Below are positions 67 through 22,399 of a stretch of DNA of 23,553 bases, piece after piece. Source of the stretch: a virus; the IMG/VR virus record IMGVR_UViG_3300032562_001053, positions 1-23,553 of that record; one strand, 5' to 3'. Every line of letters begins with the position of its first letter. Within the stretch, counting starts at the first letter, position 1. Made by a program: the position numbers and the translations under genes. Under the pieces are notes generated by a model. That model worked only from the letters and a program-made list of their open reading frames with translations, searched no databases and was not told the DNA's origin.

Positions 67-141
67 TGGCAGAGGTGCTTGGAATCGAACCAAGGTAAAC
101 GAGTTCAAAGCCCGTTGTATTAGCCACTATACGACACCCCA
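67..141 (-). tRNA. tRNA-Gln(TTG)
   Basis: A complete cloverleaf with encoded CCA: acceptor TGGGGTG/CACCTCT, D-stem GTAT/ATAC, anticodon stem ACGGG/CTCGT with loop CTTTGAA (anticodon TTG), T-arm CTTGG-TTCGATT-CCAAG, then G-CCA. Pair 1-72 is T-T instead of the usual U-A of bacterial tRNA-Gln. Confidence 0.92.
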
Positions 142-151
142 ACAATAAAAC

Positions 152-207
152 AGGATGCATTTTCTTTTTCCAATAAAAGTGAAATTTGAATTTGCTGTTA
201 GCATCCT
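152..207 (-). other. tRNA-spaced inverted repeat, possible tRNA relic
   Basis: A perfect 7-base inverted repeat (AGGATGC/GCATCCT) encloses 42 bases and sits between the Gln and Ile tRNA genes. On the minus strand the first arm is followed by TA, as at tRNA positions 8-9. No T-loop or anticodon arm can be drawn, and at 56 bases it is too short for a working tRNA. It may be a decayed tRNA or a plain spacer hairpin. Confidence 0.25.
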
Positions 208-212
208 AAAAT

Positions 213-286
213 TGGTACCCTCGACAAGAATTGAACTTGTAATAAAGGCTTATCAAGCCTCCGTTATACCATTTAACTACAAGGGT
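213..286 (-). tRNA. tRNA-Ile(GAT)
   Basis: A complete cloverleaf with encoded CCA: acceptor ACCCTTG/CGAGGGT, D-stem GTTA/TAAC, anticodon stem GAGGC/GCCTT with loop TTGATAA (anticodon GAT), T-arm ACAAG-TTCAATT-CTTGT. Confidence 0.92.
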
Positions 287-291
287 AAAAT

Positions 292-366
292 TGGCGGCTC
301 CAAGGGGAATCGAACCCCTATTAATGGCGTGACAAGCCACCGTACTAACCATTATACTATGAAGCC
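292..366 (-). tRNA. tRNA-Asp(GTC)
   Basis: A complete cloverleaf with encoded CCA: acceptor GGCTTCA/TGGAGCC, D-stem GTAT/GTAC, anticodon stem GTGGC/GCCAT with loop TTGTCAC (anticodon GTC), T-arm AGGGG-TTCGATT-CCCCT, discriminator G. Confidence 0.95.
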
Positions 367-372
367 AAATTT

Positions 373-458
373 TGGTGGAGGAAGTAAGATTCGAACCTAC
401 TCATCCTTAGGAAACAGATTTACAGTCTGCCGCGCCTCTCCAACTGCGCCGTTCCTCC
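373..458 (-). tRNA. tRNA-Tyr(GTA)
   Basis: A class II tRNA with a long variable arm and encoded CCA. Acceptor GGAGGAA/TTCCTCC, anticodon stem GCAGA/TCTGT with loop CTGTAAA (anticodon GTA). It is the first tRNA of the row; its 5' end lies nine bases after the -10 box of the promoter at 467-495, so all five tRNAs probably come from one precursor. Confidence 0.95.
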
Positions 459-2675: not shown

Positions 2676-3638
2676 TTATTTATCCGTTTTTTTCAGGACC
2701 GTATCTACTAAAGGTTTCCACTGAATTTCACGATCTTTTACATATTTAGTATATGCTGTTTGAGTGCTTAATTCGGGTGTTTCTAGCATTAAGTTGTTTT
2801 CGTACATTGTACGCACATCCTCACTCTTTAAAGCTCTAGTAAATTCTGTATGGTACCAGTCTTGCACATCCTTGGGAGTGCCAGCAGGCAACATTAGCCC
2901 CCAAGTTCCGCTAATGTTAAATCCAGGAATCGCTTCACTTAAGAGTGGTACTTCTGGCATCTGCGATAATTTGTGATTACCAGACAATGCTATGATACGG
3001 ATTTTATGATCCTTATAAAAAGCATTGGCAACTAGTACAGGTACAACTGCAAAACGCACACTTCCATTGACTACATCAGTTAGTGCCGCTACAGGACTTT
3101 GATGATCAACACGTACAATATGTTCCTTGTCTTCTTTCAAGTTTAATTTAACAGCCATTTCTTCGTAGACTAGTCTGGCGCCGCCTGTGGCCGCAATACT
3201 TACTTGTCTAGTTTGTATTGCTCTTGTAAAAAGTTTAACATTATCGATAGGATCGTTGATATTTGCAACTATAGCAAACGGACTGCTGGCCGCAAAAAAC
3301 GGATAATCAAAACTGGCAGTGGTATATGTACGCCCTGGTCCTGGAACAGCAATTTTGTCCATTGCGGCTAGTCCTGGAATACTTACCATTGTAACACTAT
3401 ATCCATCTGCGGGCTTGTGACTAAGTTCTTCTGCTCCAACTACACCGCCAGCACCGCCTCTGTTAATAACAACAAATTTAGCACCTGTGTTTTCTTCTAC
3501 CTGTTTGCTCAATGCACGAAACACTAGTTCGTTGACACTACCTGGTGCCCATGCAATTATAGCTTCGATAGGTTTAACTGGTTCCCATGCAAAGCATAGT
3601 GTTGGTACTAGTAATAGTACTGCTAATAACTTTTTCAT
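2676..3638 (-). CDS. TctC/Bug-type periplasmic solute-binding protein, copy 1 (320 aa)
   Basis: The start is placed at 3638, not at the ATG at 3683, because the protein then begins with a clean signal peptide (MKKLLAVLLLVPTLCFA) and the ATG overlaps the upstream stop by four bases (ATGA). The mature part has Bug family features: a PIEAIIAWAPGS first strand, VVINRGGAGG and PADGYSV. These proteins bind carboxylates in the periplasm for tripartite tricarboxylate transporters or act as orphan sensors. Where the family usually has an Asp in the GGxxD loop, this one reads GSVNE. No TctA or TctB membrane gene is in the window. Length is normal for the family. Confidence 0.9.
   Translation of the reverse strand: MKKLLAVLLLVPTLCFAWEPVKPIEAIIAWAPGSVNELVFRALSKQVEENTGAKFVVINRGGAGGVVGAEELSHKPADGYSVTMVSIPGLAAMDKIAVPGPGRTYTTASFDYPFFAASSPFAIVANINDPIDNVKLFTRAIQTRQVSIAATGGARLVYEEMAVKLNLKEDKEHIVRVDHQSPVAALTDVVNGSVRFAVVPVLVANAFYKDHKIRIIALSGNHKLSQMPEVPLLSEAIPGFNISGTWGLMLPAGTPKDVQDWYHTEFTRALKSEDVRTMYENNLMLETPELSTQTAYTKYVKDREIQWKPLVDTVLKKTDK
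2677..2684 (-). promoter_or_regulatory. Late-promoter-like motif GATAAATA
   Basis: It differs from the T4 late consensus TATAAATA at one position and lies 43 bases before ferritin-like copy 1, inside the end of the TctC gene. The same octamer is found upstream of ferritin-like copy 2 at 5265-5272. Confidence 0.35.
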
Positions 3639-3892
3639 TCTTGTACCTCTATAATTTCTCGTCCCCATTGGAACATGTTCCATACTCTATCATGTACATA
3701 ATACATCAATGCATTGATAGTAAACTGACAAACAAAAATAACACTTGCTGTTTCGCCAGCACTTGCTCCTGATTTAGCAACAAAATATACAATCGCGGCA
3801 GTTGTCGATCCGCCGATTATTCTCCAACTTACAAGTCTTGCAATACTACGTTTACGCCAATCATTAAATTTTTTCTTCACTTTCGTCTCCAT
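3635..3892 (-). CDS. DUF2061 small membrane protein (85 aa)
   Basis: It matches the DUF2061 pattern: basic N-terminus, RSIARLVSWRIIG (15-27), a first hydrophobic segment (about 28-40), a second (about 49-63), then YYVHDRVWN (64-72) and a tryptophan/glycine tail. It is an inner-membrane protein of unknown function, found widely in bacteria and in some marine phages. Its start overlaps the methyltransferase gene by 16 bases and its stop overlaps the TctC gene by 4, so the three are translated as a unit. Confidence 0.85.
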   Translation of the reverse strand: METKVKKKFNDWRKRSIARLVSWRIIGGSTTAAIVYFVAKSGASAGETASVIFVCQFTINALMYYVHDRVWNMFQWGREIIEVQE

Positions 3893-4474: not shown

Positions 4475-5182
4475 TTAGGCGTATGTATAGTTATACGCTT
4501 TTTCCATCATCTCACGTGCTTCTGGAACTGGCTTGGTGTTAATACAACTAATTTTATATAGTTTCTTACGCATTTGATCTGCCAATGCTAGTGCATGTGC
4601 TTGAGCTTCTGGAGTGTCAACTAACTTCTCTAGTTTCCACTGTCCAATATTACTGTGAAATCCTTCATCACGAGCAACCTTAGTATAACGATGGCTGATA
4701 AAATCATCTTCGATGGTTTCAGCCATTTGGTGCCAAACTGCTTCTGCACGACCTTCAGCGATTGTTTGATACAATGCTAGGGCGATCGGATCTTCGTGTG
4801 CATTGAATTCATCAATCAATGCGGCACCTTTACTAGTAATACGTGTTTCCCAGCTATCGATAGCCGCTTCTAGGTCAACTTCTTCACCTGAAATGTGTTC
4901 GATAACTTCTTTAACTAGACGATAGTGTAGTGCTTCGTCCAAAACTTGCTTGCTCAATAACTGTAGTTCGATAACATCTGTATCTTTTGGCATTTCTGAA
5001 ATTGTTTTTGCAATTTCTACCATATTCATACGTTCATTAACCATACGTCCAGTAAAGTGATCAATTAGTTCTTCTTTGCTTGGTTTGCTTTCAAAGTATG
5101 CTTTAACTTGCATCGCACTGGCTTTGAAAAGGGTTTGATTGTTCTCAACTAATTCGTTGACGAACTGTTTTGCTGTTTTCAT
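4475..5182 (-). CDS. Ferritin-like di-iron protein, copy 2 (235 aa)
   Basis: A paralogue of the protein at 1870-2634 with the same four-helix ligand set: Glu50 (NERMNM), Glu83-x-x-His86 (DEALH), Glu143 (IAEGRA) and Glu173-x-x-His176 (RDEGFH). The shared ARDE-x-FHSNIG block is the best-conserved part. It lacks the Cys-rich C-terminal extension of copy 1. It has an AAGGACC ribosome site and an 85-base structured leader of its own, then a strong terminator, so it may be expressed apart from the operon upstream. Known family roles are iron-dependent oxidation or oxygenation; the substrate is unknown. Confidence 0.85.
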   Translation of the reverse strand: MKTAKQFVNELVENNQTLFKASAMQVKAYFESKPSKEELIDHFTGRMVNERMNMVEIAKTISEMPKDTDVIELQLLSKQVLDEALHYRLVKEVIEHISGEEVDLEAAIDSWETRITSKGAALIDEFNAHEDPIALALYQTIAEGRAEAVWHQMAETIEDDFISHRYTKVARDEGFHSNIGQWKLEKLVDTPEAQAHALALADQMRKKLYKISCINTKPVPEAREMMEKAYNYTYA

Positions 5183-5272: not shown

Positions 5273-5873
5273 TTATAATTGCAACACTTATATCTTCTTG
5301 AAAATAGTATTGATAATATTCGTCAGGAGGACGTTTTATTTGCAAAAAGTCGCATAATTCTCTGTTACTAGATGGAGTAAGAGTATCGTGTACATGTTGG
5401 GCAGTTACGATATTAAAATTTTGCTCTTCTATATGACTGGCCATGGTAGCTAGATCAACATAGTAATCATAGCAAGGATACTTGATATTAAAGTGCCCGC
5501 ATTTAACCCACCAACCTAAACATGCATCGTCACCACGATAAACTAACACTACAGGGCAGTTGGGCCATGTAGTTCTTAAAAAATCTATGTGATTACTTAG
5601 TACATGGCTTTTAATAATGCGTGTGCCTGTTCCTGTAAATGGGCTATCGAATAATTGTTCAACAGCTTCTTTAGGCATGTCTTCTATGTTAGCAGGAATT
5701 TCAAATTCCATACCTGGATCAAAGTATGCACCCATGTGCATGACACCTGCGTGATGCTTATAAGTACGATCTTCTGTATAATCGCTACGATCTATATCTG
5801 GACTAAAATAAATGTTCTTAGCAACACTTGACCATTTACTGCCAGGAGCACCTACTACGAATATGTACTTCAT
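5268..5873 (-). CDS. Sulfotransferase-like P-loop protein (201 aa)
   Basis: The N-terminal GAPGSKWSSVAKNI (8-21) resembles the 5'-phosphosulfate loop of PAPS-dependent sulfotransferases, and RIIKSH (85-90) with VVLVYRGDDACLGWWV (108-123) resembles the 3'-phosphate region. The protein is at the short end for the family. It is probably cytoplasmic and would sulfate a sugar or small molecule if active. Its start overlaps the stop of the TctC gene by 4 bases. Related short proteins are common in modification clusters of marine T4-like phages. Confidence 0.7.
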   Translation of the reverse strand: MKYIFVVGAPGSKWSSVAKNIYFSPDIDRSDYTEDRTYKHHAGVMHMGAYFDPGMEFEIPANIEDMPKEAVEQLFDSPFTGTGTRIIKSHVLSNHIDFLRTTWPNCPVVLVYRGDDACLGWWVKCGHFNIKYPCYDYYVDLATMASHIEEQNFNIVTAQHVHDTLTPSSNRELCDFLQIKRPPDEYYQYYFQEDISVAIIR

Positions 5874-6835
5874 TGTTTAATATCCTTTAGTACAGGATAA
5901 AATGTCTTGCGTAGACGTTCTCTGTAGACTTGTACACCTTGTGGAGTTAGTTCACGTTCGTCTATAGTAATTAAATTATCTTCACGCCATTTTTTATATT
6001 CATCGCTACGCACAATAGGAGCAAATGTTTTTGCGTACCAGTCTACAATTTCTTTAGGTGTGTTAGGCGGTAAAGTTAGTACCCATGCACCGTAAACATT
6101 GATACCGGGAGCGATATCATTAAGTAAGGGAACATCTGGTAATTGTGCTAGTTTGCGTTCGCCAGCAACACCAATAGCTTTTACTTTGCCTGCATCTATA
6201 AATGGTTTAGCAATAGCAACAGGAATCATTCCAAACTCCGTTCCAGACTTGCCATCATACTGTGCTACGCTTAACAATGTAGGATTAGGTCCATTGAATA
6301 TAATGAACTGTACTTGACTTTTATCGCCTTTAGTTTTTGCCATTAGATATTCATAACCTGTACGATGTGCTCCGCCGCCGATTGCAAAATTAATAGGGCG
6401 AGTAGGTTTGTGTATTAACTGTGCAAACTCCTTAGGAGTGTTTATAGGACTTTTAGGACTTGCAATTAGGATTAAAGGACTTTTGCCTGTTGTTAGCACT
6501 TCGCTAAAGCTATCGTAATTGTATTTCTTTACTCCAGCTTCCCATACATCATTTGTAATCCATAAACTCATATGACTTAATACTGCTACAGTATAACCAT
6601 CTGGTGCGGCTTCGTATAAAGTGTTGGCCGCAATAGCACTATCGGCACCTGGTTTGTTTTCAACAACAAACTTAGTTTTATCGCCTGTGCTTTCTAATAT
6701 TTTTGCTAGTTCTCTAAAACTAATTTCGTTACCACTACCCGGGGCAGTTCCAATAATAACTTTGACAGGCTGTGTAGGTTCCCAAGCGAATGCTAATGCT
6801 GGCACTAATAAGAGTATTGCTAGTAGTCTTTTCAT
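5870..6835 (-). CDS. TctC/Bug-type periplasmic solute-binding protein, copy 2 (321 aa)
   Basis: The protein starts with a signal peptide (MKRLLAILLLVPALAFA) nearly identical in layout to copy 1, then WEPTQPVKVII, GTAPGSGNE, FVVENKPGAD and PDGYTVAVLS, all Bug family landmarks. As in copy 1, the loop that usually reads GGxxD reads GSGNE, so the change is shared and not a chance mutation. Ribosome site AAGGAC; start and stop both overlap neighbours by 4 bases. It would act in the periplasm of the infected cell and needs a host transporter or sensor as partner, since none is encoded nearby. Confidence 0.9.
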   Translation of the reverse strand: MKRLLAILLLVPALAFAWEPTQPVKVIIGTAPGSGNEISFRELAKILESTGDKTKFVVENKPGADSAIAANTLYEAAPDGYTVAVLSHMSLWITNDVWEAGVKKYNYDSFSEVLTTGKSPLILIASPKSPINTPKEFAQLIHKPTRPINFAIGGGAHRTGYEYLMAKTKGDKSQVQFIIFNGPNPTLLSVAQYDGKSGTEFGMIPVAIAKPFIDAGKVKAIGVAGERKLAQLPDVPLLNDIAPGINVYGAWVLTLPPNTPKEIVDWYAKTFAPIVRSDEYKKWREDNLITIDERELTPQGVQVYRERLRKTFYPVLKDIKQ

Positions 6836-8220: not shown

Positions 8221-8727
8221 TTAACCGTTCAATACTTTTGCTACTGAATTCATAACACTGGCAATACGACCAATGTCGCGTAAGTTTTCTACTGTGTAGC
8301 CTTCTTGCTTGAGTGTGTCATAGTGTGCCTTAACACAGAAATGACATTTACCAACAATACTTGCGGCAAGACTGAATGCCTCAAAGTTTGCCTTTGTAGT
8401 TCCACCATGTGACGCAATAGCATTCATGCGTAACTGTGCTGGCAAGCCTTTTAACTGTTCATCATCAGCCATTTCAACATAGGGGTACCAGATATTGTTT
8501 TGCGACATGATGCTTGCGGCAGTCATTGCTGAGTCAGCAAACTTTGGTGCGTCTGCTAACATAACACTTAATACTTTTCCGTTACCAGTTGCGGCAAGTG
8601 CGGCCACTGCACATCCTATGGCCACATCTGCATCCAATGTACTACGCAAAAGGACAGCGTCCAAGTTTAACTTGGTGTCCTTTGCATAGTCTGGTAATGC
8701 CGGTTTAACTGTTTCAATAAAACTCAT
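8221..8727 (-). CDS. ahpD: AhpD-type alkyl hydroperoxidase / AhpC reductase (168 aa)
   Basis: Member of the carboxymuconolactone decarboxylase/AhpD family. The catalytic set Glu116, Cys128-x-x-Cys131 and His135 (KCHFCVKAH) keeps the spacing of mycobacterial AhpD, and the length fits. AhpD passes electrons from lipoylated proteins to AhpC, so the host lipoamide system would drive it. It shares an operon with ahpC (9899-10438), which fits this role. Ribosome site AAGGAAAA. A TTGACG upstream has no matching -10, so it is probably read from the ahpC promoter. Confidence 0.92.
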   Translation of the reverse strand: MSFIETVKPALPDYAKDTKLNLDAVLLRSTLDADVAIGCAVAALAATGNGKVLSVMLADAPKFADSAMTAASIMSQNNIWYPYVEMADDEQLKGLPAQLRMNAIASHGGTTKANFEAFSLAASIVGKCHFCVKAHYDTLKQEGYTVENLRDIGRIASVMNSVAKVLNG

Positions 8728-8756: not shown

Positions 8757-9113
8757 TCAACTCCATTGTATTGCCGCTATCGTAGCATACTTGGCATATT
8801 TCTGTCTAATCTTTATTGTTAGGCGATTTTCGGTGGCATCCATATTAGCCATACCCCAATTCCAATCCCATCCTTGACGACCTACATGCTGTTCCATCCA
8901 AGGGCGATAGTGATCGTTCGGGTCTGCTGATTCTGCTGATACTTTAGATCCATCTAGTGATTCGTGCAAGACTACCCAGCCTTTGGGCCAACGCACATTG
9001 ATAACAACTCCGGGCATGAATCTCCACCAAAGTTTCTCTTTGATGTTGAGCCCGCAAGGCAACCAATAGTTTTGTTTCCAGAAGTATAACCCGTTGATTT
9101 CTAGTTTACTCAT
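8757..9113 (-). CDS. Hypothetical protein (118 aa)
   Basis: Unusually rich in Trp (11 by eye) with motifs such as FWKQNYWLPCG and GWDWNWGMANMDATENR; no signal peptide or membrane segment. I do not recognise the family. Its start overlaps the homing endonuclease stop by 4 bases (ATGA). Without the endonuclease it would follow ahpC directly, so it is part of the ahpC-ahpD operon and may have a related role. Confidence 0.75.
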   Translation of the reverse strand: MSKLEINGLYFWKQNYWLPCGLNIKEKLWWRFMPGVVINVRWPKGWVVLHESLDGSKVSAESADPNDHYRPWMEQHVGRQGWDWNWGMANMDATENRLTIKIRQKYAKYATIAAIQWS

Positions 9114-9859
9114 ACTCTACTCTTACAGTTATCAAAGTGTCTTCTAACGATATTATGTTTAACTCCAGTAGCACCACAATGTGGGCAAGATACTACTTGT
9201 AATATCCTACCATTTTTCCATCCTAAGTCTGTATAACCTGATAGAGCACTTACACTAACCTTCTTTTGTTCGGTGCCGTTGTTGATCCATCTTGTCTGAC
9301 TCACTATATCAGACAGTTTAGACTTAGTATCGGTATTGTGACTTCTACCAATTGCCTTTTCTCTTATTTTGTTTCTTCTGCTTTCTTCTCTATCTGCCGG
9401 CCTATTAAGTTGAGACAACGACATACGCTTTTTTGTATCTTCAGAAATAACTCTACCCATCAATGACGCTGATCGTTTGGCGTTCCCTTCCGGAGTCTGT
9501 TTTTTCTTTCTTTGCGATGCTAATGCTTTTTCACTTGCTGGTCCAACATTTCTAAACTTTTCACCGCCGAGGTTTTCATTGAGCCACTCACTCTTGTCAA
9601 GAGCACCGACTTTCTTGAGAAACCTATATTCATAATTAAGTGCTTGGTCAGGACTTTCAAATACTTTCCTTACCTCAGCCTTAAAAGAATCTATTCCGTA
9701 TTCGTTTAATAAGTTCTTAACCTTAACAGAAGAAGTAAAATACCCACCGGACCTCCAAAATGTTTCAGGGTTTGAACCCTTTCCATATTTAGATCCGTAA
9801 TATTTCAATCCGGTGGGTATGTGTAAAACAAAATAAGTGTAGGGTATTCGATCAGACAT
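9110..9859 (-). CDS. GIY-YIG homing endonuclease (249 aa)
   Basis: The N-terminal GIY-YIG nuclease domain has Tyr9, KYYGSK (19-24), an Arg at 36 and a likely catalytic Glu near 78. The middle part carries NUMOD3-like DNA-binding repeats (GRVISEDTKKRMS near 135, GRSHNTDTKSKLS near 171), then WINNGTEQKK. The C-terminus is a zinc-finger-like CPHCG (225-229) with His and Cys at 241 and 245. This is the layout of T4 Seg/Mob-type endonucleases. It is a free-standing selfish gene between ahpC and the 118-residue gene; both flanking genes look intact. A hairpin covers its start codon. Confidence 0.9.
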   Translation of the reverse strand: MSDRIPYTYFVLHIPTGLKYYGSKYGKGSNPETFWRSGGYFTSSVKVKNLLNEYGIDSFKAEVRKVFESPDQALNYEYRFLKKVGALDKSEWLNENLGGEKFRNVGPASEKALASQRKKKQTPEGNAKRSASLMGRVISEDTKKRMSLSQLNRPADREESRRNKIREKAIGRSHNTDTKSKLSDIVSQTRWINNGTEQKKVSVSALSGYTDLGWKNGRILQVVSCPHCGATGVKHNIVRRHFDNCKSRV

Positions 9860-9898: not shown

Positions 9899-10438
9899 TT
9901 ACAGCGTTTCGCCCCCGATAGTTCTTGAACAGGCACACAGTTCCCCCGTTTGAAGACTATCTAAGATTCGAAGTGTTTCTTCTGGACTACGACCTACATT
10001 TAGGTTATTGACTGTGACATGTTGGATAACATTATCTGGGTCAACGATAAATGTTGCTCTCAGTGGTGCTCCTGCCGGGGCAAAAAATACACCCAATTGC
10101 TCGACTAAACTTAGTTCGCCTCGTTGTGTATCGGCAAACTGAGTATGTGTAATTTTCTTCAAGTCTGCGTGGGCATTTTGCCAGGCAACCGCACAGAATT
10201 CGTTATCTGTTGAGCCTGTAAGTAATACAGCATCTCTATCAATAAAATCTTGGTTCAATTTGTCATACCCAACAATTTCTGTGGGGCAAACAAAAGTGAA
10301 AGATTTTGGATAGTAAACGATTACTTTCCACTTGCCTTCAAAACTTTGATCGGTAATTGTAAAGTATGCGTCTTCTGGTTGTCCTGGCTTAACACCAGTA
10401 ATTGCGAAAGCTTCTAATTTATTTCCAACTGTTTTCAT
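9899..10438 (-). CDS. ahpC: AhpC-type peroxiredoxin (179 aa)
   Basis: A 2-Cys peroxiredoxin. The peroxidatic Cys51 lies in SFTFVCPTE, and the C-terminal ELCACSRT gives two resolving cysteines (168, 170), the three-Cys arrangement of mycobacterial-type AhpC that works with AhpD. It reduces hydrogen peroxide and organic peroxides in the cytoplasm. Strong ribosome site (AAGGAGA) and a sigma70 promoter at 10498-10526. It is the first gene of the ahpC, endonuclease, 118-residue gene, ahpD operon. Confidence 0.95.
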   Translation of the reverse strand: MKTVGNKLEAFAITGVKPGQPEDAYFTITDQSFEGKWKVIVYYPKSFTFVCPTEIVGYDKLNQDFIDRDAVLLTGSTDNEFCAVAWQNAHADLKKITHTQFADTQRGELSLVEQLGVFFAPAGAPLRATFIVDPDNVIQHVTVNNLNVGRSPEETLRILDSLQTGELCACSRTIGGETL

Positions 10439-10852: not shown

Positions 10853-11425
10853 TTAGAATGAATGTGCATAACCTACACGAGTAATACCAGCTTGTGTATC
10901 ACCACGCATACGATCATAACCTACATACACGTTGTCTGCCTTGGTAATGTTGTAACCAAGATCGGCACGCCATGTACGTGTTTCCCACTGATTTGCATCT
11001 TGATCAAACGGAGCACGATAACGCCATGCTACTGTTGCTGTTACACCTGTCGATGCAACTGGAATATTCACACCTGGCTCAATAGAGTAGTATGAATAAT
11101 TTGTAGTTGTTGTATAACGCTCACCTAGACCTACACGAACATATGGTGTAGCTAGACCCATAACATTATACTGACCTGTAACACCTGCTTCTAGTTGTGA
11201 ACTAGAAAGTCCTGTTTCAGTGTTGTCAGTCTTACCAACAACTGTCAAAGTTTTAACATCAACTGCAAAGTTATCGTTAACTGCTTGCTTAACGCTTAAC
11301 TGATAGTTGTCTGATTTTGGGCCATTGTTTTTACCCAATTGGTCTTGAAATTCAACACCAACTTCGACAGCACTTGCTGTTACTGCCACTAGGGCTAAAA
11401 GAGTTGCTAATGCAATTTTCTTCAT
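10853..11425 (-). CDS. Outer-membrane beta-barrel protein (190 aa)
   Basis: A signal peptide (MKKIALATLLALVAVTASA) is followed by about 170 residues of alternating polar/hydrophobic strands with turns such as KNNGPKSDN and PFDQDANQWE. The chain ends in a C-terminal Phe (RVGYAHSF), the signal used by the BAM machine to insert outer-membrane barrels. The size fits an 8-strand barrel. In a phage such a protein could change the host surface, for example to block superinfection. It has its own promoter-like TATAAT at 11475-11480 and a strong terminator. Ribosome site AAGGAAG. Confidence 0.8.
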   Translation of the reverse strand: MKKIALATLLALVAVTASAVEVGVEFQDQLGKNNGPKSDNYQLSVKQAVNDNFAVDVKTLTVVGKTDNTETGLSSSQLEAGVTGQYNVMGLATPYVRVGLGERYTTTTNYSYYSIEPGVNIPVASTGVTATVAWRYRAPFDQDANQWETRTWRADLGYNITKADNVYVGYDRMRGDTQAGITRVGYAHSF

Positions 11426-11507: not shown

Positions 11508-11533
11508 AAAATGGCTACTTTCGTAGCCATTTT
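11508..11533 (-). terminator. Terminator hairpin of the tmRNA gene
   Basis: AAAATGGCTAC and GTAGCCATTTT form an 11-bp stem, closed on the minus strand by a GAAA tetraloop. The outer A-T pairs supply the T-run. Confidence 0.8.
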
Positions 11534-11581
11534 GGTTAAGTTGGGTGACAAGGATCAACCAATCCTCGCGAGGGCAGTTTC

Positions 11582-11611
11582 TTAGGCTGCGATTGCAAAT
11601 TCGTCATTAGC
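11582..11611 (-). other. tmRNA tag reading frame (ANDEFAIAA)
   Basis: The resume codon is probably GCT (11611-11609), preceded by ATCAGT, and the frame ends with TAA. The encoded tag ANDEFAIAA compares with ANDENYALAA of E. coli and keeps the AA end recognised by ClpXP-type proteases. Confidence 0.88.
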
Positions 11612-11744
11612 ACTGATGCTAACTGGAACTTGGAAATACTCGAATGTATTTGCTTTTGCATTTACGTTATTTGCTTGATTTACAGTCATCGCCTACTGTG
11701 TTGCCGTCTCTACTATCTCGCCACGTCGAAGCCAATACAGGCCC

Positions 11745-11823
11745 ATCAAAAGAAAACTCAGATCCTTTCACGGTTGGCTCCATTACTGGTTAGCCGCAGT
11801 ATGCATCCTGCCGAATTTTCTTT
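11745..11823 (-). other. Intervening segment of the permuted tmRNA precursor
   Basis: This segment lies between the CCA end and the 5' acceptor strand. Its borders pair: CAAAAGAAAA (starting in the CCA) with TTTTCTTTTG just before GGGCCTG, a perfect 10-bp stem extending the acceptor helix. This would be removed by tRNA-type processing to give the two mature pieces. Confidence 0.8.
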
Positions 11824-11896
11824 TGGTGGACCTGCCGGGGGTCGAACCCGGGTCCGCAACGCCTTCGCTTTGAAGGGATTACAACAATTCTTTAAA

Positions 11897-11965
11897 TTAA
11901 CGCTTTTTCTTAGTAGCTCGCATTGCGGCTTCACGAATACGTTTTTTTGCGATTGGTCTAGTCAT
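11897..11965 (-). CDS. Tiny basic peptide (22 aa) just upstream of tmRNA
   Basis: The gene has a near-ideal ribosome site (AAGGAG, 6 bases before ATG) and its own promoter at 11990-12017. The product starts MTRPIAKKRIREAA and ends in TKKKR; about half the residues are Lys or Arg, and it is likely a single amphipathic helix. The acceptor piece of the tmRNA begins within about 10-30 bases after its stop, so both share one transcript. Nucleic acid or ribosome binding is a guess from charge alone. It is too short for homology, but the signals make it a convincing gene. Confidence 0.65.
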   Translation of the reverse strand: MTRPIAKKRIREAAMRATKKKR

Positions 11966-11989: not shown

Positions 11990-12017
11990 ATTATACTATC
12001 TTTTGTTTATAAGTCAA
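11990..12017 (-). promoter_or_regulatory. Sigma70 promoter of the peptide/tmRNA unit
   Basis: On the minus strand TTGACT (12012-12017) and TATAAT (11990-11995) are 16 bases apart. It shares AAGATAGTATAATTA with the promoter at 8164-8191 apart from one base, so the two form one promoter class. Confidence 0.85.
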
Positions 12018-12027
12018 TTATTTCGAA

Positions 12028-14835
12028 TTAACTCATCGCTTCCTGTGTAATCAAATGAGCACCAACGTTAGCTGTTGAACCACTAGTATTAGTAATAGCA
12101 ATAGTCAACGTATCAACTTGGTTACCACGAACGCTGTTGTACATGGCAAAGAAGAATGACAAATCAATCTGTTGTAAACCTGAACCGCCAGCTGGTGATA
12201 CAAACGCAAACACAACTTCGCCGCCGTTAGCGTTAGTACCAGGGTTAACTGCTGGAGTAAGTGCGGTCATACTAGTAGCTGTTGTATCACGTTCGGCAAA
12301 TGAATAAGCACTACCTAACTGGTTCAAAGGTGTCCATGCTGGATTAGTCAATGTTGCTGTGTTACTTACTGATCCTGCAATTAATTCTACCACGCACTTT
12401 TGGTCAGCTGTAATAAACATAGTCTTAGGCAATAACTGTCCACGGTTGGCCAGTCCAACGATGTAGCCTTGTACAAATGTATATGTACTTGCTGTAACGT
12501 TAGTAGTTAATGGCAAACTGATAGTGATATAACTGTTGGTAACAACGCTGGATACAACTGTACCTGCCTGTACGCCAACACCAGTTACACTCTGTCCTGC
12601 AAAAATACCAGAAGTATTTGCAATCTGGATAATTTGGCTACCTGTAGCACCAACGGTATAACCATTAACTGTTGATACGCTTGAACCGTTATATGTGATT
12701 GAACCACCGCTAGCTGAAGCTGATGCTGTTACAGCTGAAGTAGCTGGTGATGCTAATGTAGTTCCGCTTGGAGCCGCACCAATTACATAGTCTGCCATAT
12801 AAAGCGTAGCTGTACTATTTGTTGTAATACGAGCTATTTGTCCAAAACCATTTGAACCTAATCCTGGGAAGTAAATTGCACGACCTTGGAATTGGTTAAT
12901 TGATAATACTGCTGTCAGTGTACCGCTAACTGCACCTGTTACAAGTGTGTCAACTTGAATAGTAAAGTTTGGACTTGTACCTGATATTGTTAGAATCTTT
13001 GAACCAACTCCGATACCCGTTCCACTTACTGTATCGCCTACTGCAAATACACCAGTTTGTGTACCACTAGTAGTTAGTGTATATGGGTTGGTATACCATG
13101 TAAATGTTTGATTGCTAGTACCTGCTGTTGTTGTTACTACTGTTGTACCGCCTTGTGTTGTTACTAGTGTAAAACTATTTGATGTAGCTTGTGCTACACT
13201 AAGTGGAGCAACATAATAAGTACCTGCCGCGATATAAGTTGCAGTACCACCTGATATAGTAACAGGAGTTCCAGTTGGTAATGGGTTCGCAGTGGCAGTA
13301 CCATAAGTTATTACTCCACCTACTGCTATAGTAATTGTACCACCTAGCGTTGTAGTTGCAGTAGCAACTGCTGTATTGTTAACAGTATTGTTTAAACCCA
13401 ATGTTAGTACGTTTGCGTAAATCGGTGTTGATGTAATAGCTGTGATGTGATTTTGACTTACTTGATATGTACCAACACTGCCTGGCGTGTAAAAACTAAT
13501 TGCGGTTGTGCTTAGTGCGGCTGTTGTCGCAACTGGCAAACCAAATTTATCAACCAAGTTAACTGTTGTGCTAGTTGTGTAATTGCTTGGTACAAATGTT
13601 CCTGCTGGAATACCTGCGGCTGTAATTAATTGTCCTGCTACAATACCTGTACTAGCTGATACTGTAATACTTGTGGCGCCCAGTGTAGCTGTTGCGGTTA
13701 ATCCACTAGTTGCACTTGAACCAGTTGATGTTAATTGTGTAACAACAAAAGTTCCCCACAGGACACCAGTACCTTGTAGCTGTTGTCCTGTTACAATTGA
13801 TCCACTATTCACGTTTGTAACTGTCATCGTAGTGCCTACGATACTAGCCGCTACGTTGCCTGCTGTATTGGTTGCTGATGTAATAGCACCACCATTACTT
13901 AAACCATTGATGTTTCCGTATTCTTGTGTTCCCATAGGACGACTACGAATACTCAATAATGGAAAACGTGTAGTACCTGTTGGAATAGCACGAGTTGGTG
14001 CATTTAATGGCATACCATAAGAGTACGTAAATCCACGCTGATCGTTTTGTCCACCTTCAATAATAACTGACACACCATAATGGTACATGTCGTTAGTACC
14101 AGCTGTGTTGGTTGTATTGCGTTGTTCGTAACGAACCGGTAAGTTACCAGTACGTGCCCACGGTGCCAATTGTCCGCCACCTGTTAATGGGTTAGCATAG
14201 TTACCCCATCCAATTTGGTGAGCAATGATTGGTTCACCGTTGACCCAGAATCCCCAACGTGTTGCACCAGCACCGTACCATCCGTATTCTAACCAGAACA
14301 TCTGAATACGTGTAAAATCGATAGTAGCCAATGTAGCACGGTCGCCGTTCCATTGATCTAAACCTACACGAGTTTCTTGTATCACACCGTTTACGTCTGT
14401 ACGCACTACAGCATAGATACCAAATGGATTATCTGGAGTCACTACGCTTTGTTCAAAAAATACACCGTTGGAATCGTCAAAGAATCCCACACGTTGTACG
14501 TTACCCGATAATGCAGTACCTAAGTTACAACCTGTAGCCATAAACATAGTCTTACCTGGTTGGTAGCGATGATATGGACGTGACTGACGAATTGTCATAT
14601 CTCCTGGACTTGAACCTAAACGCATACGTACACCGCCACTTGATGGAACTTGTTGTACGCTAGTCAATCCGCTGACGTTGTTGGTAAAAATCTCCCAACG
14701 CATTGGCTGTGTGCCGTATTCAAAGTCAGCTTCATAAATGTTTTGATGCATTGTGACTTTTAAACGCCCTAGTACATCACGTACACGTGGGGGCATTGCA
14801 CTGCCGAATCTGTCGCTATTATTGGTATATGCCAT
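12028..14835 (-). CDS. Large repeat-rich virion structural protein (935 aa)
   Basis: The first ~290 residues (starting MAYTNNSDRFGSAMPPRVRD, with YEADFEYGTQPMRWE and YHRYQPGKT) resemble a conserved structural protein of T4-like cyanophages and pelagiphages. From about 310 to 790 the chain is Thr/Ser/Gly-rich, with diverged beta-type repeats of the form G-x-x-V-x-G-T-G-V-x-x-G-T-x-V, as in GQQLQGTGVLWGTFV, GDTVSGTGIGVGSKI and GQSVTGVGVQAGTVV. The last ~140 residues form a separate, less repetitive domain. No signal peptide. An AAGAGAG ribosome site and a GCTAAATAC late-type motif (14865-14873) precede it. Probably a tail or head fibre or decoration protein. Confidence 0.8.
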   Translation of the reverse strand: MAYTNNSDRFGSAMPPRVRDVLGRLKVTMHQNIYEADFEYGTQPMRWEIFTNNVSGLTSVQQVPSSGGVRMRLGSSPGDMTIRQSRPYHRYQPGKTMFMATGCNLGTALSGNVQRVGFFDDSNGVFFEQSVVTPDNPFGIYAVVRTDVNGVIQETRVGLDQWNGDRATLATIDFTRIQMFWLEYGWYGAGATRWGFWVNGEPIIAHQIGWGNYANPLTGGGQLAPWARTGNLPVRYEQRNTTNTAGTNDMYHYGVSVIIEGGQNDQRGFTYSYGMPLNAPTRAIPTGTTRFPLLSIRSRPMGTQEYGNINGLSNGGAITSATNTAGNVAASIVGTTMTVTNVNSGSIVTGQQLQGTGVLWGTFVVTQLTSTGSSATSGLTATATLGATSITVSASTGIVAGQLITAAGIPAGTFVPSNYTTSTTVNLVDKFGLPVATTAALSTTAISFYTPGSVGTYQVSQNHITAITSTPIYANVLTLGLNNTVNNTAVATATTTLGGTITIAVGGVITYGTATANPLPTGTPVTISGGTATYIAAGTYYVAPLSVAQATSNSFTLVTTQGGTTVVTTTAGTSNQTFTWYTNPYTLTTSGTQTGVFAVGDTVSGTGIGVGSKILTISGTSPNFTIQVDTLVTGAVSGTLTAVLSINQFQGRAIYFPGLGSNGFGQIARITTNSTATLYMADYVIGAAPSGTTLASPATSAVTASASASGGSITYNGSSVSTVNGYTVGATGSQIIQIANTSGIFAGQSVTGVGVQAGTVVSSVVTNSYITISLPLTTNVTASTYTFVQGYIVGLANRGQLLPKTMFITADQKCVVELIAGSVSNTATLTNPAWTPLNQLGSAYSFAERDTTATSMTALTPAVNPGTNANGGEVVFAFVSPAGGSGLQQIDLSFFFAMYNSVRGNQVDTLTIAITNTSGSTANVGAHLITQEAMS

Positions 14836-18434: not shown

Positions 18435-18665
18435 ATGAACAAGTATAAGGCAGTTATTCTCACATGGTTGCAAAATAGAGAAAGCAACCATGAAATTGCT
18501 TGGAGATTTTTTGAAGCTGAAACACCAGAAGCTGTTATTGCATTGGTTCGCGGAGACGAATTCCCCAACGCACATTTAATTCGTGTATTTGCAGAAGAAG
18601 ATACCGAACATACTACAGAACTAGCGAGAGACGAGAATAATTTTTTAACACCGTTTAAATCTTAA
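18435..18665 (+). CDS. Small hypothetical protein (76 aa)
   Basis: It follows the previous small gene by 7 bases and overlaps the desaturase start by one base (TAATG). A soluble alpha/beta-looking protein, acidic in its second half (AEEDTEHTTELARDE), no membrane segment. No family recognised; operon position supports it as a gene. Confidence 0.65.
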   Translation: MNKYKAVILTWLQNRESNHEIAWRFFEAETPEAVIALVRGDEFPNAHLIRVFAEEDTEHTTELARDENNFLTPFKS

Positions 18666-19372
18666 TGAATTTAGTATTTTATACATTGATAGTCACGCAT
18701 ATCACTATAGTATGCGTGACTTTATTTTTGCATCGTGGACAAGCACACAAAGGAATCATATTCCACCCAATCCTCGGACACTTCATGCGTTTTTGGCTAT
18801 GGCTAACAACTGGCATGGTTACCAAGCAATGGGTAGCTATACATCGTAAACATCATGCGTTTAGTGATAAAGAAGGTGATCCACATAGTCCACACGTATA
18901 TGGAATCAAACGTGTCTTTTTTAAGGGTGCAGGCTTATATCACCTGGCCAGTAAAGACACAGACATGGTTAACAAGTTTGGTGTTGGTACTCCAGACGAT
19001 TGGATGGAGCGTAACATTTATACACCCCATAGCCGCCTTGGTATTCTTTTAATGCTGGTCATAGACTGCCTGTTCTTTGGACCATGGGGTTTTATAGTGT
19101 GGGGTGTACAAATGATATGGGTTCCATTTCATGCCGCAGGTGTTATTAACGGATTAGCTCATTGGTATGGTTACAAAAATGGTCCAACTAAAGATAAATC
19201 ACGTAATCTTATACCTTGGGGTGTATGGATTGGTGGAGAAGAGCTACACTCAAATCACCACGAAGAACCTGCTAATGTTAAACTAAGTCGTAAGTGGTTT
19301 GAGTTTGACATTGGTTATTTTTATCTTCGCGTATTTTCCATCTTGGGACTTGCCCGTATCGTTCAGAGGTAG
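18665..19372 (+). CDS. Membrane fatty acid desaturase (235 aa)
   Basis: All three histidine boxes of delta-9 acyl-CoA/lipid desaturases are present: His23-x4-His28 (HRGQAH), His60-x2-His63-His64 (HRKHH) and His195-x2-His198-His199 (HSNHH), plus His166 in NGLAHW. Membrane segments lie at about 3-22, 35-53, 125-140 and 143-160. It would insert a double bond into membrane fatty acids using oxygen and a host electron donor. It is short (about 235 against 300 or more) but no box is missing. Last gene of the plus-strand late block; likely taken from a host. Confidence 0.88.
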   Translation: MNLVFYTLIVTHITIVCVTLFLHRGQAHKGIIFHPILGHFMRFWLWLTTGMVTKQWVAIHRKHHAFSDKEGDPHSPHVYGIKRVFFKGAGLYHLASKDTDMVNKFGVGTPDDWMERNIYTPHSRLGILLMLVIDCLFFGPWGFIVWGVQMIWVPFHAAGVINGLAHWYGYKNGPTKDKSRNLIPWGVWIGGEELHSNHHEEPANVKLSRKWFEFDIGYFYLRVFSILGLARIVQR

Positions 19373-20059: not shown

Positions 20060-22399
20060 TTACTTCTCCCTATTATATTGTGATTCAACCATTTCGTTAT
20101 GCAGTTGATCAGTTGGTCCGAACAATCCACGACCTAATCTTCTGTTGTCGACTGTTTGTTGATTACCATATATCGAATATGGTTTATAAAATTGTGTTTG
20201 CACAATTAATTGTTGACTATAAGCATCAAATCCAGGCTTATAGGCCATAGCTGAAATAACTACCCCTTGTAGTTGTTTTTGAGCTTCCATGTTAGATGCT
20301 TTGCCCATTTCATTAGCAACGTTCTTAGCATTAGCGGCCGCTTCCTTCTTCTGTGCTTCTGCTTTTCTTTCCGCTAATTCTTGGCGAGCAGTCTTAGGTT
20401 GATCTTTATTACCATCTTGTTGTCCACTAGCCATTTGGCTTGGGCCTGCTGGTTTATCATCATCAGATTTTTTATCTTCTTGTTTTTTATCACCACTAGG
20501 TTTATCACCACTAGGTTTATCATCAGATTTTTTATCGTTAGAACTAGATGCTTGTTGAGCAGGAGCCGCAGGAGTTGGAGCCGCAGGAGCAGGAGCTTGT
20601 GCAACTAACTGTACAGGTGCGGCTGGTGCGGCAGCAGGTGCGGCTGAAGCAACTGGAGCGGCAATCGCTTTATCTACAGTTGTATTACCAGTTGCTGATG
20701 GTGCTACAGAAACAGTACCGCTAGAACTAACAGTTGGAGTTACAGAACCAACTGCTACTGTTGTAGTTGTAGTAGGTGTAGACGATGATGTTGTTGTAGT
20801 GGTGGTCGTAGCAGTAGTAGTAGTTGTAGTGGTAGGCGCAGTTGATGCAACCACTCCGGCTGTTGCTACAGTTGATGCCATATTCTGCTGTTCAAGCACC
20901 ATTCTAGTTGCGTAGGCAGTTGCGTAATTTGGACAAGTTCTATCATATAATCCATTTAACGAGCACTGCTGATTAAAGTATGCTTGTGCATATCCTGGAC
21001 AATCAGACATGTATAATGGGTTTGCTGTACATTGCTGACTATGGTATGCCTGTGCATATCCTGTACAATCTGTTGCATATAACGGATTAGCTGTACATTG
21101 TTGATTATGATACGCTGTTGCATATCCCGGGCAATCACTAGCGAACAATGGACTAATACTACATTGTTGATTGTGATACGCCTGTTGATATCCAGAGCAG
21201 TCTGTTGCATACAATGGGTTAATTGTACATTGTTGATCGTGATACGCTTGTTGATAACCCGAGCACGTTGTCGAGTACAATGGATTAAGGCTACATTGTT
21301 GATCTAGATAAGCGGCCGCGTATCCAGGACAGTCAGTAGCATAAAATGGATTAAGACTACATTGCTGATCGTGATACGCTTGTTGATAACCAGAACAACT
21401 TGTAGAGTATAAAGGATTAACACTACATTGTTGAACTGTATATGCCGCTGTATATCCCGGGCAAGATGTATTAAAAAGCGGATTAATTGAGCATTGCTGA
21501 GTAGTGTATGCCGCCGCATATCCTGGACAGGATGGTGAATACAACGCATTTACAGTACATTGTTGTGTAGTGTATGCCGATTGGTATCCTGGACAAGTAG
21601 TAGATGATAACGGATTGATTACACATTGATCAACAGGAGCAGTTCCGTTAGCCGACCAACTTAATCCGGTTGTCGGCACATTAAACCCCTGTCCGTGATA
21701 GTATTGAAAGTACTCGCCATTTGCAAGATTTCCAGTCATACCGGCTGTTACAGTATGTCCAGTAGATATAAATGCGCCGCCATACTTGACATTAATGCCA
21801 CCACTAGAATTGATATTCAACTCAAATGTACTTGAATTATTTGTTCCGTATTCTTTAGTACCATACCAACCGTAAGTCATAGAACTACCAGTACCTTTGT
21901 ACCAAGTAGCTTGACCAGTTGTATCGATTAAATCTGTCCATAATGGTGCAATCAAATAATTGTACACAGAATTTCGTGTTCCTTGATTAGCAATGCCAGC
22001 CAAATCTTGTCCACTACAACACCCAGCTCCTGGAATACCCCCAGTACTAAAACTAACTAGTCCGTTAGAGTACATCCAGCTGTTAGAAAAGTTTTGTCCG
22101 TAGAACGGAAATACAAAGCCAAGAGGAACTGGTTGTGAACTATCATCTCCTAGTTGTAGATGGGTGGCACCAGCTGTGCCAGCAATATTTTCTAAAGGCA
22201 ATGCCGCAGATCCTGTAGCGACAGATACCGCAAGGCCGGAGCCTCCAGGAATTGGAATAGACACTAGTGTACCTGTTCCCCCATTCACCGGAGTCACAGT
22301 CATACCTTGCGGATTAAAAACTACCTGTGCATGAACCTTGTCGCAGTTAGTTAATCCTGCAATTAAGATTACAGAAAATATTACTGCTAAAAACTTCAT
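20060..22399 (-). CDS. Secreted or virion protein with 11 Cys-rich repeats (779 aa)
   Basis: The signal peptide (about 1-24, perhaps lipoprotein-like with a Cys at 19) is followed by a NIDO-like beta domain (about 30-255, with FPFYGQNFSNSWMYSNGLVSF). Next come 11 tandem 22-residue repeats (258-499, C-x2-NPLY-x3-C-x-GY-x2-AY-x2-QQ), a Thr/Ser-run region (about 515-555), a Pro/Ala region, a Lys/Asp-rich stretch (KPSGDKPSGDKKQED) and a charged C-terminal domain ending near a QTQFYKPYSIYG motif. Two Cys per repeat suggest disulfide-linked units. It overlaps the upstream gene by one base. Probably an external virion or envelope protein. Confidence 0.8.
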   Translation of the reverse strand: MKFLAVIFSVILIAGLTNCDKVHAQVVFNPQGMTVTPVNGGTGTLVSIPIPGGSGLAVSVATGSAALPLENIAGTAGATHLQLGDDSSQPVPLGFVFPFYGQNFSNSWMYSNGLVSFSTGGIPGAGCCSGQDLAGIANQGTRNSVYNYLIAPLWTDLIDTTGQATWYKGTGSSMTYGWYGTKEYGTNNSSTFELNINSSGGINVKYGGAFISTGHTVTAGMTGNLANGEYFQYYHGQGFNVPTTGLSWSANGTAPVDQCVINPLSSTTCPGYQSAYTTQQCTVNALYSPSCPGYAAAYTTQQCSINPLFNTSCPGYTAAYTVQQCSVNPLYSTSCSGYQQAYHDQQCSLNPFYATDCPGYAAAYLDQQCSLNPLYSTTCSGYQQAYHDQQCTINPLYATDCSGYQQAYHNQQCSISPLFASDCPGYATAYHNQQCTANPLYATDCTGYAQAYHSQQCTANPLYMSDCPGYAQAYFNQQCSLNGLYDRTCPNYATAYATRMVLEQQNMASTVATAGVVASTAPTTTTTTTATTTTTTTSSSTPTTTTTVAVGSVTPTVSSSGTVSVAPSATGNTTVDKAIAAPVASAAPAAAPAAPVQLVAQAPAPAAPTPAAPAQQASSSNDKKSDDKPSGDKPSGDKKQEDKKSDDDKPAGPSQMASGQQDGNKDQPKTARQELAERKAEAQKKEAAANAKNVANEMGKASNMEAQKQLQGVVISAMAYKPGFDAYSQQLIVQTQFYKPYSIYGNQQTVDNRRLGRGLFGPTDQLHNEMVESQYNREK
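20903..21628 (-). repeat. Eleven tandem 66-bp coding repeats
   Basis: Eleven units of 66 bases, each encoding 22 residues with two Cys and a conserved NPLY and GY/AY pattern. The units differ at DNA level, mostly at variable protein positions, so the array is old or selected, not a recent expansion. Confidence 0.9.

Follow-up and report, generated by a model that had tools for sequence, protein, structure and literature searches.

A permuted phage tmRNA gene with a 25-residue tag frame and a conserved tag front shared among viral contigs

A stretch of 23,553 bases from an IMG/VR virus record (hereafter the window, meaning the whole stretch of DNA that was analysed) contains on its minus strand, at about 11,886-11,508, a permuted (two-piece) tmRNA gene. 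It is probably a working phage ssrA whose 25-residue tag joins a phage-specific extension to a degron of the ClpXP/ClpAP type. What is new here is the long tag with its conserved front; the rescue RNA is otherwise of a known kind.

The merged permuted-tmRNA model of Rfam, RF04321, matched positions 11886-11582 (minus strand) with 135.4 bits (gathering threshold 47; E = 7.9e-27), and its model positions 1-213 were covered in full. The three older permuted models compete as one clan, of which the betaproteobacterial RF01850 was the best, matching 11925-11506 (minus strand) with 124.9 bits (gathering threshold 84; E = 5e-38), and ARAGORN called a permuted tmRNA at 11916-11491 (minus strand). An earlier note, made from the letters of the window, had proposed a permuted gene, and its structural claims were borne out by these strong matches and by the parts themselves (Table 1): the CCA-ended acceptor half comes ahead of the 5′ half in the gene, GGGCCTG (GGGCCUG in the RNA) pairs with CAGGTCC (CAGGUCC) over 7 bp including G3:U70, and a 10-bp pairing (11825-11816 with 11756-11747) joins the two flanks of the intervening segment. 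The T-arm, the D-loop motif and the CCA are all present. G3:U70 is the alanine identity element of the acceptor stem, and G3:U was kept in 104/104 viral genes. The further claim that a promoter and a terminator frame the unit stands for the hairpin that ends it, and is less secure for the promoter-like site, given how often weak scans of that kind find one by chance. Judged by its sequence, the gene is in form a true, ordinary-looking phage permuted tmRNA.

Table 1. Features of the tmRNA gene and its immediate neighbours, in window coordinates
Feature	Position	Strand	Basis or remark
Acceptor piece (3′ half of the tRNA-like domain: P2 strand, T-arm, CAGGUCC acceptor strand, ACCA)	11824..11886	-	RF04321 and RF01850 alignments
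Intervening segment, 79 nt, putatively removed to give two pieces; ends pair	11745..11823	-	Fold and covariation
5′ (mRNA-like) piece: GGGCCUG acceptor strand, D-loop UUCGAC, pseudoknot-1 stem ACAGU/ACUGU, tag frame, downstream pseudoknot region; 3′ end putative	11534..11744	-	RF01850 alignment, ARAGORN
Tag frame: AKANTFEYFQVPVSISANDEFAIAA and TAA; GCA at 11659 to TAA at 11582	11582..11659	-	
Tag residues 1-16, phage-specific extension; residues 17-25, host-like degron			
Terminator-like hairpin, 11 bp, AAAATGGCTAC-GAAA-GTAGCCATTTT	11508..11533	-	Sequence; last hairpin of RF01850 model
Sigma-70-like promoter, TTGACT-16-TATAAT	11990..12017	-	Consensus match only, 11/12; such weak scans give 1.8 chance sites per kb
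Micro-ORF, 22 codons, MTRPIAKKRIREAAMRATKKKR, with AGGAG ribosome-binding site; ends just upstream of tmRNA	11897..11965	-	
Virion structural protein, phrog_1645, upstream neighbour	12028..14835	-	30-36% identical to T4-like cyanophage proteins
Outer-membrane beta-barrel-like protein, downstream neighbour	10853..11425	-	Homologue also adjoins long-tag tmRNA in two further loci (L022, L023)

The acceptor stem and intervening segment together fold with -43.8 kcal/mol (z = -6.6; 0/200 shuffles). In the 104 viral loci, which offer 46 distinct pairs of arms, 95.2% of cells were paired over the 10 positions of the flank helix, with many pair types at each position, against a mean of 66.5% and a maximum of 74.1% when 5′ arms were re-dealt to the 3′ arms of other records in 1000 rounds. 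As pairing drops when arms are re-dealt, the precursor helix is under selection as RNA, and such selection would fit a need for tRNA-like processing of both ends.

ARAGORN read a tag of 25 residues, about 2.5 times the length of bacterial tags, and the frame has a resume signal, a degron end and a stop codon. The tag previously proposed for this gene, ANDEFAIAA, was wrong, as these nine residues are the last nine of the longer peptide. Before the long start, U at -5 and A at -4 were found in 78/78 viral genes, with the search pattern fixing A at -4 and leaving U at -5 free, and in E. coli the resume codon is set chiefly by the A at -4 (A86; PMC2481249). The long start is also the resume position of the betaproteobacterial consensus (UAAAU-GCC in RF01850), and U-A at -5/-4 preceded the internal AND-type start in none of the genes. 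All 72 distinct tag DNAs were free of stops in frame 0, and the other two frames contained stops in 71 and 68 of them. The test for synonymous excess is biased for codons 1-8, whose residues were fixed by the search pattern, so that codons 9-18 were tested apart; in the best-sampled tag class (F-T-G-N), a minimum spanning tree gave them 42.7 synonymous changes and 42.3 others. The synonymous fraction is thus 0.50, versus 0.295 expected for changes placed at random (0/1000 simulations). These patterns argue that the tag extension is translated. The small sample of the window's own tag class (F-E-Y/F type) gave 9 synonymous and 28 other changes, which is not significant, and translation of the window's own extension therefore rests on its open frame and resume signal.

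Long-tag relatives were reached by four independent routes, namely the exact acceptor half, the downstream neighbour protein, the upstream structural protein and a pattern for the 5′ tRNA-like part, and a degenerate pattern for the tag front placed them in at least 119 viral contigs, where every match examined was a tmRNA, or a cut-off tmRNA, with a long tag. The viral long tags comprise 55 distinct peptides of 22-31 residues, with a conserved front, A-[NK]-A-[DNS]-T-F-[DE]-[FY], and usually a host-like degron at the end. In many lineages this end is a complete host-like tag (ANDSRFALAA, ANESRFALAA, NDERFELAA or ANDEFAIAA), in others it is only F/V-ALAA, LVAA or LVA, and 38/55 distinct peptides end in LAA. 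A sample drawn only on the tRNA-like domain was bimodal, with tags of 10-13 or 25-31 residues and none between.

In 84,980 bacterial and archaeal species genomes, the tag-front pattern occurred at 21 places, at none of which a tmRNA was called. A bacterial source of the tag was rejected as a candidate on these 21 matches, five of which were also read through. Beta-type tags from the bacterial order sampled were almost all of 10-11 residues and ANDExFALAA-like (e.g. ANDERFALAA), whether the gene was permuted or one-piece; in two deviant permuted calls (L277, L304), ARAGORN seems to have misplaced the frame. This bacterial sample consists of the loci returned from 300 genomes of the order, and its 16/300 over the cut-off is far too low to serve as a census, as 7 of about 100 candidates were scored per genome. 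The tag peptides had no match in isolated phages by tblastn up to E = 10 and only chance matches in the PDB (E = 1.3 and 3.1), and a search for a second copy of the tag motif in the phages' own proteins gave one weak match (E = 0.04, in G018). No description of extended phage tags was found in the literature within a scope that excluded most subscription journals and database sequence tables.

Between phages, the tRNA-like parts agree by as much as 99%, and the nearest sampled bacterial one reaches only 72%. The tRNA-like part of locus L007 is 97% like that of the window, yet its tag is the ten-residue ANDSVYSLAA; since so close a relative has a short tag, the extension is dispensable for tmRNA function as such. 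Conversely, L021 and L112 have the same tag front as the window but a tRNA-like part only about 69% alike. A tree of the tRNA-like parts, with few columns and many open forks, showed tags and tRNA-like parts shuffling, with 8 changes of the long label and no firm origin. From these mismatches, tag and tRNA-like domain are seen to exchange freely. The suggestion that the phage took a permuted ssrA from a betaproteobacterial host is upheld insofar as the phage gene is permuted and closest to the betaproteobacterial of the three permuted models, and not upheld as a recent capture from a host, given the kinship of the tRNA-like parts and the phage-specific tags. The bacterial order sampled contains both permuted and one-piece forms, and therefore the host need not carry a permuted gene. 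Of the two purposes suggested in the note, a change of the tag is the more interesting one; a tmRNA supply kept up during host shutdown is a further conjecture.

The gene lies in a phage context, as first supposed, and not on a bacterial chromosome, its flanks being viral. The upstream structural protein found relatives on 173 viral contig stretches (the best 80 of 173 were kept), on contigs of up to 265 kb, and long-tag tmRNAs occur on contigs of 212, 266, 270, 278, 280 and 383 kb. The phage itself would be large and, judging from the kind of its relatives, freshwater-type. Seven sister loci (L005, L007, L008, L017, L021, L110, L112) have, in the same place as the window's micro-ORF, an ORF of 21-40 residues with 38-48% Lys/Arg. 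These ultra-basic micro-ORFs of the window's lineage lie 13-20 nt upstream of the tmRNA and often end in RATKKKR, and the other lineage (L006, L181) has a cold-shock-like protein in their place.

Other genes of the window were noted along the way. Two TctC-family solute-binding proteins of the tripartite tricarboxylate transporter (2676-3683 and 5870-6835, minus strand) are unusual phage cargo. Two similar-looking proteins of 254 and 235 aa (1870-2634 and 4475-5182, minus strand) gave, respectively, a weak, below-cut-off match to the phenylacetic acid catabolic family and no family match. The window also holds AhpD-like and AhpC-like peroxidase genes and a DesA-type fatty acid desaturase (8221-8727 and 9899-10438, minus strand; 18665-19372, plus strand), with a homing-endonuclease-like protein (weak group I intron endonuclease match; 9110-9859, minus strand) between the peroxidase genes. 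Four tRNA genes (Gln, Ile, Asp, Tyr) lie at the record edge (67-458, minus strand). A protein of 779 aa (20060-22399, minus strand) without a Pfam family has a long run of near-identical repeats around NPLYxTxCxGYxxAYxxQQC and is perhaps a surface or fibre protein. Models of defence systems had no match among ten window proteins.

Possible protein partners of the tag were looked for in the phages themselves. SmpB was found in none of 25 viral records, an absence that is weak evidence as completeness estimates are lacking for these records; because of it, the phage tmRNA presumably uses the SmpB of its host. SspB was found in none of 11 phage records, and 7/11 phage records searched encode a PF00574 protein. 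A strong ClpP type (220-272 bits) occurs in five long-tag phages (G003, G015, G018, G019, G020), and, of three proteins tested against the NCBIfam ClpP subfamily NF001368 (cut-off 249), those of G020 and G003 pass and that of G018 falls just short, at 240.8. All proteins of this strong type retain the catalytic motifs MGQACSMG or VGQAASMG and MIHQ/MIHR. A second, weaker ClpP-like type (89-122 bits) is shared by phages with long and with short tags, and in G017, G018 and G019 its gene is some 3 kb away from the tmRNA. The large long-tag phages G003, G015 and G017-G021 (loci L403-L410) carry a true ClpP and/or a divergent ClpP-like protein.

Among long-tag phages of at least 74 kb, 5/9 have ClpP, versus 0/7 similar-sized records with short-tag or unclassified tmRNAs, the strong type not having been found in those seven (G361-G367, 70-202 kb). 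Strong ClpP was likewise not found in Melnitz or HTVC008M, and no ClpP match was found in the long-tag records G004 and G016, both of more than 100 kb. The window is a fragment, so that the ClpP evidence comes from sister phages rather than from its own phage; its closest large relative, G003, has the tag AKANTFEYFQVPVTLATANDAEFAIAA and a strong ClpP. With small numbers and related phages, the association of long tag and ClpP is a lead, not a result. ClpP is not the tag-reading part of ClpXP.

The gene, its permutation, the covarying precursor helix and the long frame with its conservation are legible in the sequence itself, and from them we infer a course of processing, charging, use of host SmpB and degradation and, above all, a role for the extension. 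In a single transcript, one long helix would arise from both acceptor strands together with the sequences on either side of the intervening segment, and host tRNA-processing enzymes could then excise that segment to leave a two-piece tmRNA. This RNA would be charged with alanine through G3:U70, would act with host SmpB, and would add its tag to proteins on ribosomes stalled on broken mRNA during infection. By homology, we have high confidence that rescue proceeds as in known tmRNAs. The C-terminal part of the tag would act as a host-like ClpXP/ClpAP degron, and the N-terminal 16 residues, phage-specific and conserved at the protein level, would most likely offer a protease or adaptor something further to recognize; among sister phages, a phage-encoded ClpP may be that partner. 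Our best guess is that the extension adds a recognition element and is more than a plain linker, a tentative reading for which we would claim somewhat less than an even chance.

A mere linker would hold an adaptor-binding front apart from the ClpX degron and so prevent competition between adaptor and unfoldase, and its sequence would matter little. The first residues, A-(A-N-A-D-T-F), do resemble the SspB-reading front of host tags, tags range in length between 22 and 31 residues, and rapid degradation in the presence of SspB has been described for an engineered tag in which four residues separate the SspB site from the ClpX site (PMC8138137). Nevertheless, T-F-D/E-F/Y and F-T-G-N-S/T-V are kept with synonymous excess, which is unexpected for a mere linker, and position 2 in the window's tag class is lysine, not asparagine, so that we regard this explanation as unlikely. 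Somewhat less likely still, the extension could divert tagged proteins to a different protease, for instance Lon or FtsH, in the way that the long Mycoplasma tag leads to Lon; in Mesoplasma florum, Lon reads a tag that exceeds the E. coli one in length (PMC9382460), and the phage extension is rich in aromatic residues, but the ClpXP-like tag end with its prevalent LAA is kept. A role as a decoy, with the phage RNA titrating host SmpB or tmRNA function, is very improbable, as selection maintains the tag frame, the stop codon and the resume signal here, although the tag-less tRNA-like domain of mycobacteriophage DS6A was reported to inhibit tmRNA (PMC11915505). Resumption at an internal GCU, with the upstream 48 nt as a spacer and ANDEFAIAA as a tag that alone resembles a normal one, is scarcely credible, given C rather than A at -4, upstream codons conserved at the protein level in the sister class and a long start at the bacterial resume position.

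Returning to the reading of the extension as a recognition element, the wider proposal that large uncultured phages run their own protein disposal, with a bipartite tag written by tmRNA, a phage or host reader and possibly a phage ClpP, is possible but doubtful at present. If it were true, proteins from broken mRNAs in infected cells would be handled by the phage's rules. A tag class confined to phages, with a conserved front of 15-20 residues, suggests that phages rewrote the fate of proteins rescued from stalled ribosomes, and the question of why phages carry tmRNA becomes directly testable, since the extension must have a partner to look for. The long tag could also be used as a metagenome marker for its phage group and may supply new degron parts.

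Permuted tmRNAs have already been reported in aquatic phages. Buchholz and co-workers found 53 two-piece forms among 133 unique tmRNA structures, with 402 of 18,146 phage genomes concerned, and 50 of the 53 came from marine or aquatic samples (PMC9004378). The roles discussed there for phage tmRNA are that hijacked machinery is kept running or that host proteins are tagged (PMC9004378). The marine, T4-like aquatic phages Melnitz and HTVC008M likewise have a permuted tmRNA, that of Melnitz grouping with Alphaproteobacteria (PMC9004378), but their tags, ANDNYVPVDYALAA (14 residues) and ANFNEYALAA (10 residues), are without extension. In the 2025 tmRNA database, which holds 79 phage sequences, the commonest tag length is 10 residues (PMC11915505). 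The ssrA tag of Mesoplasma florum (Mollicutes) resembles the phage tag in exceeding 10 residues by far and in joining an additional front part to a short degron end, and differs in being bacterial, read by Lon and ending in NYAFA (PMC9382460).

Phages of Samunavirus (Pseudomonas) and Bosavirus (Stenotrophomonas) also match RF04321, with 108.7-118.6 bits, but are unrelated phages with 12-residue tags, ANDTSFDVRLAA and ANDSVYAQAIAA. Their permuted beta-type genes (L002 and L004 in Samunavirus, L003 in Bosavirus) are unannotated as tmRNA in the records, and their gammaproteobacterial hosts are expected to have a one-piece tmRNA. With the betaproteobacterial permuted tmRNA (RF01850, RF04321), the phage gene shares the gene order, the acceptor pairing with G3:U70, the T-arm, the D-loop motif, the intervening segment, the PK1 stem, the resume site, the terminator hairpin and a degron-like tag end. 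It differs in its RF01850 score of 124.9 bits, versus 160-331 for the bacterial members above the cut-off, in a phage genome in which no smpB was found, and in a tag of 25 residues instead of 10 (ANDExFALAA). Its membership of RF01850 stands, and a ten-residue tag is not a defining feature of this RNA family.
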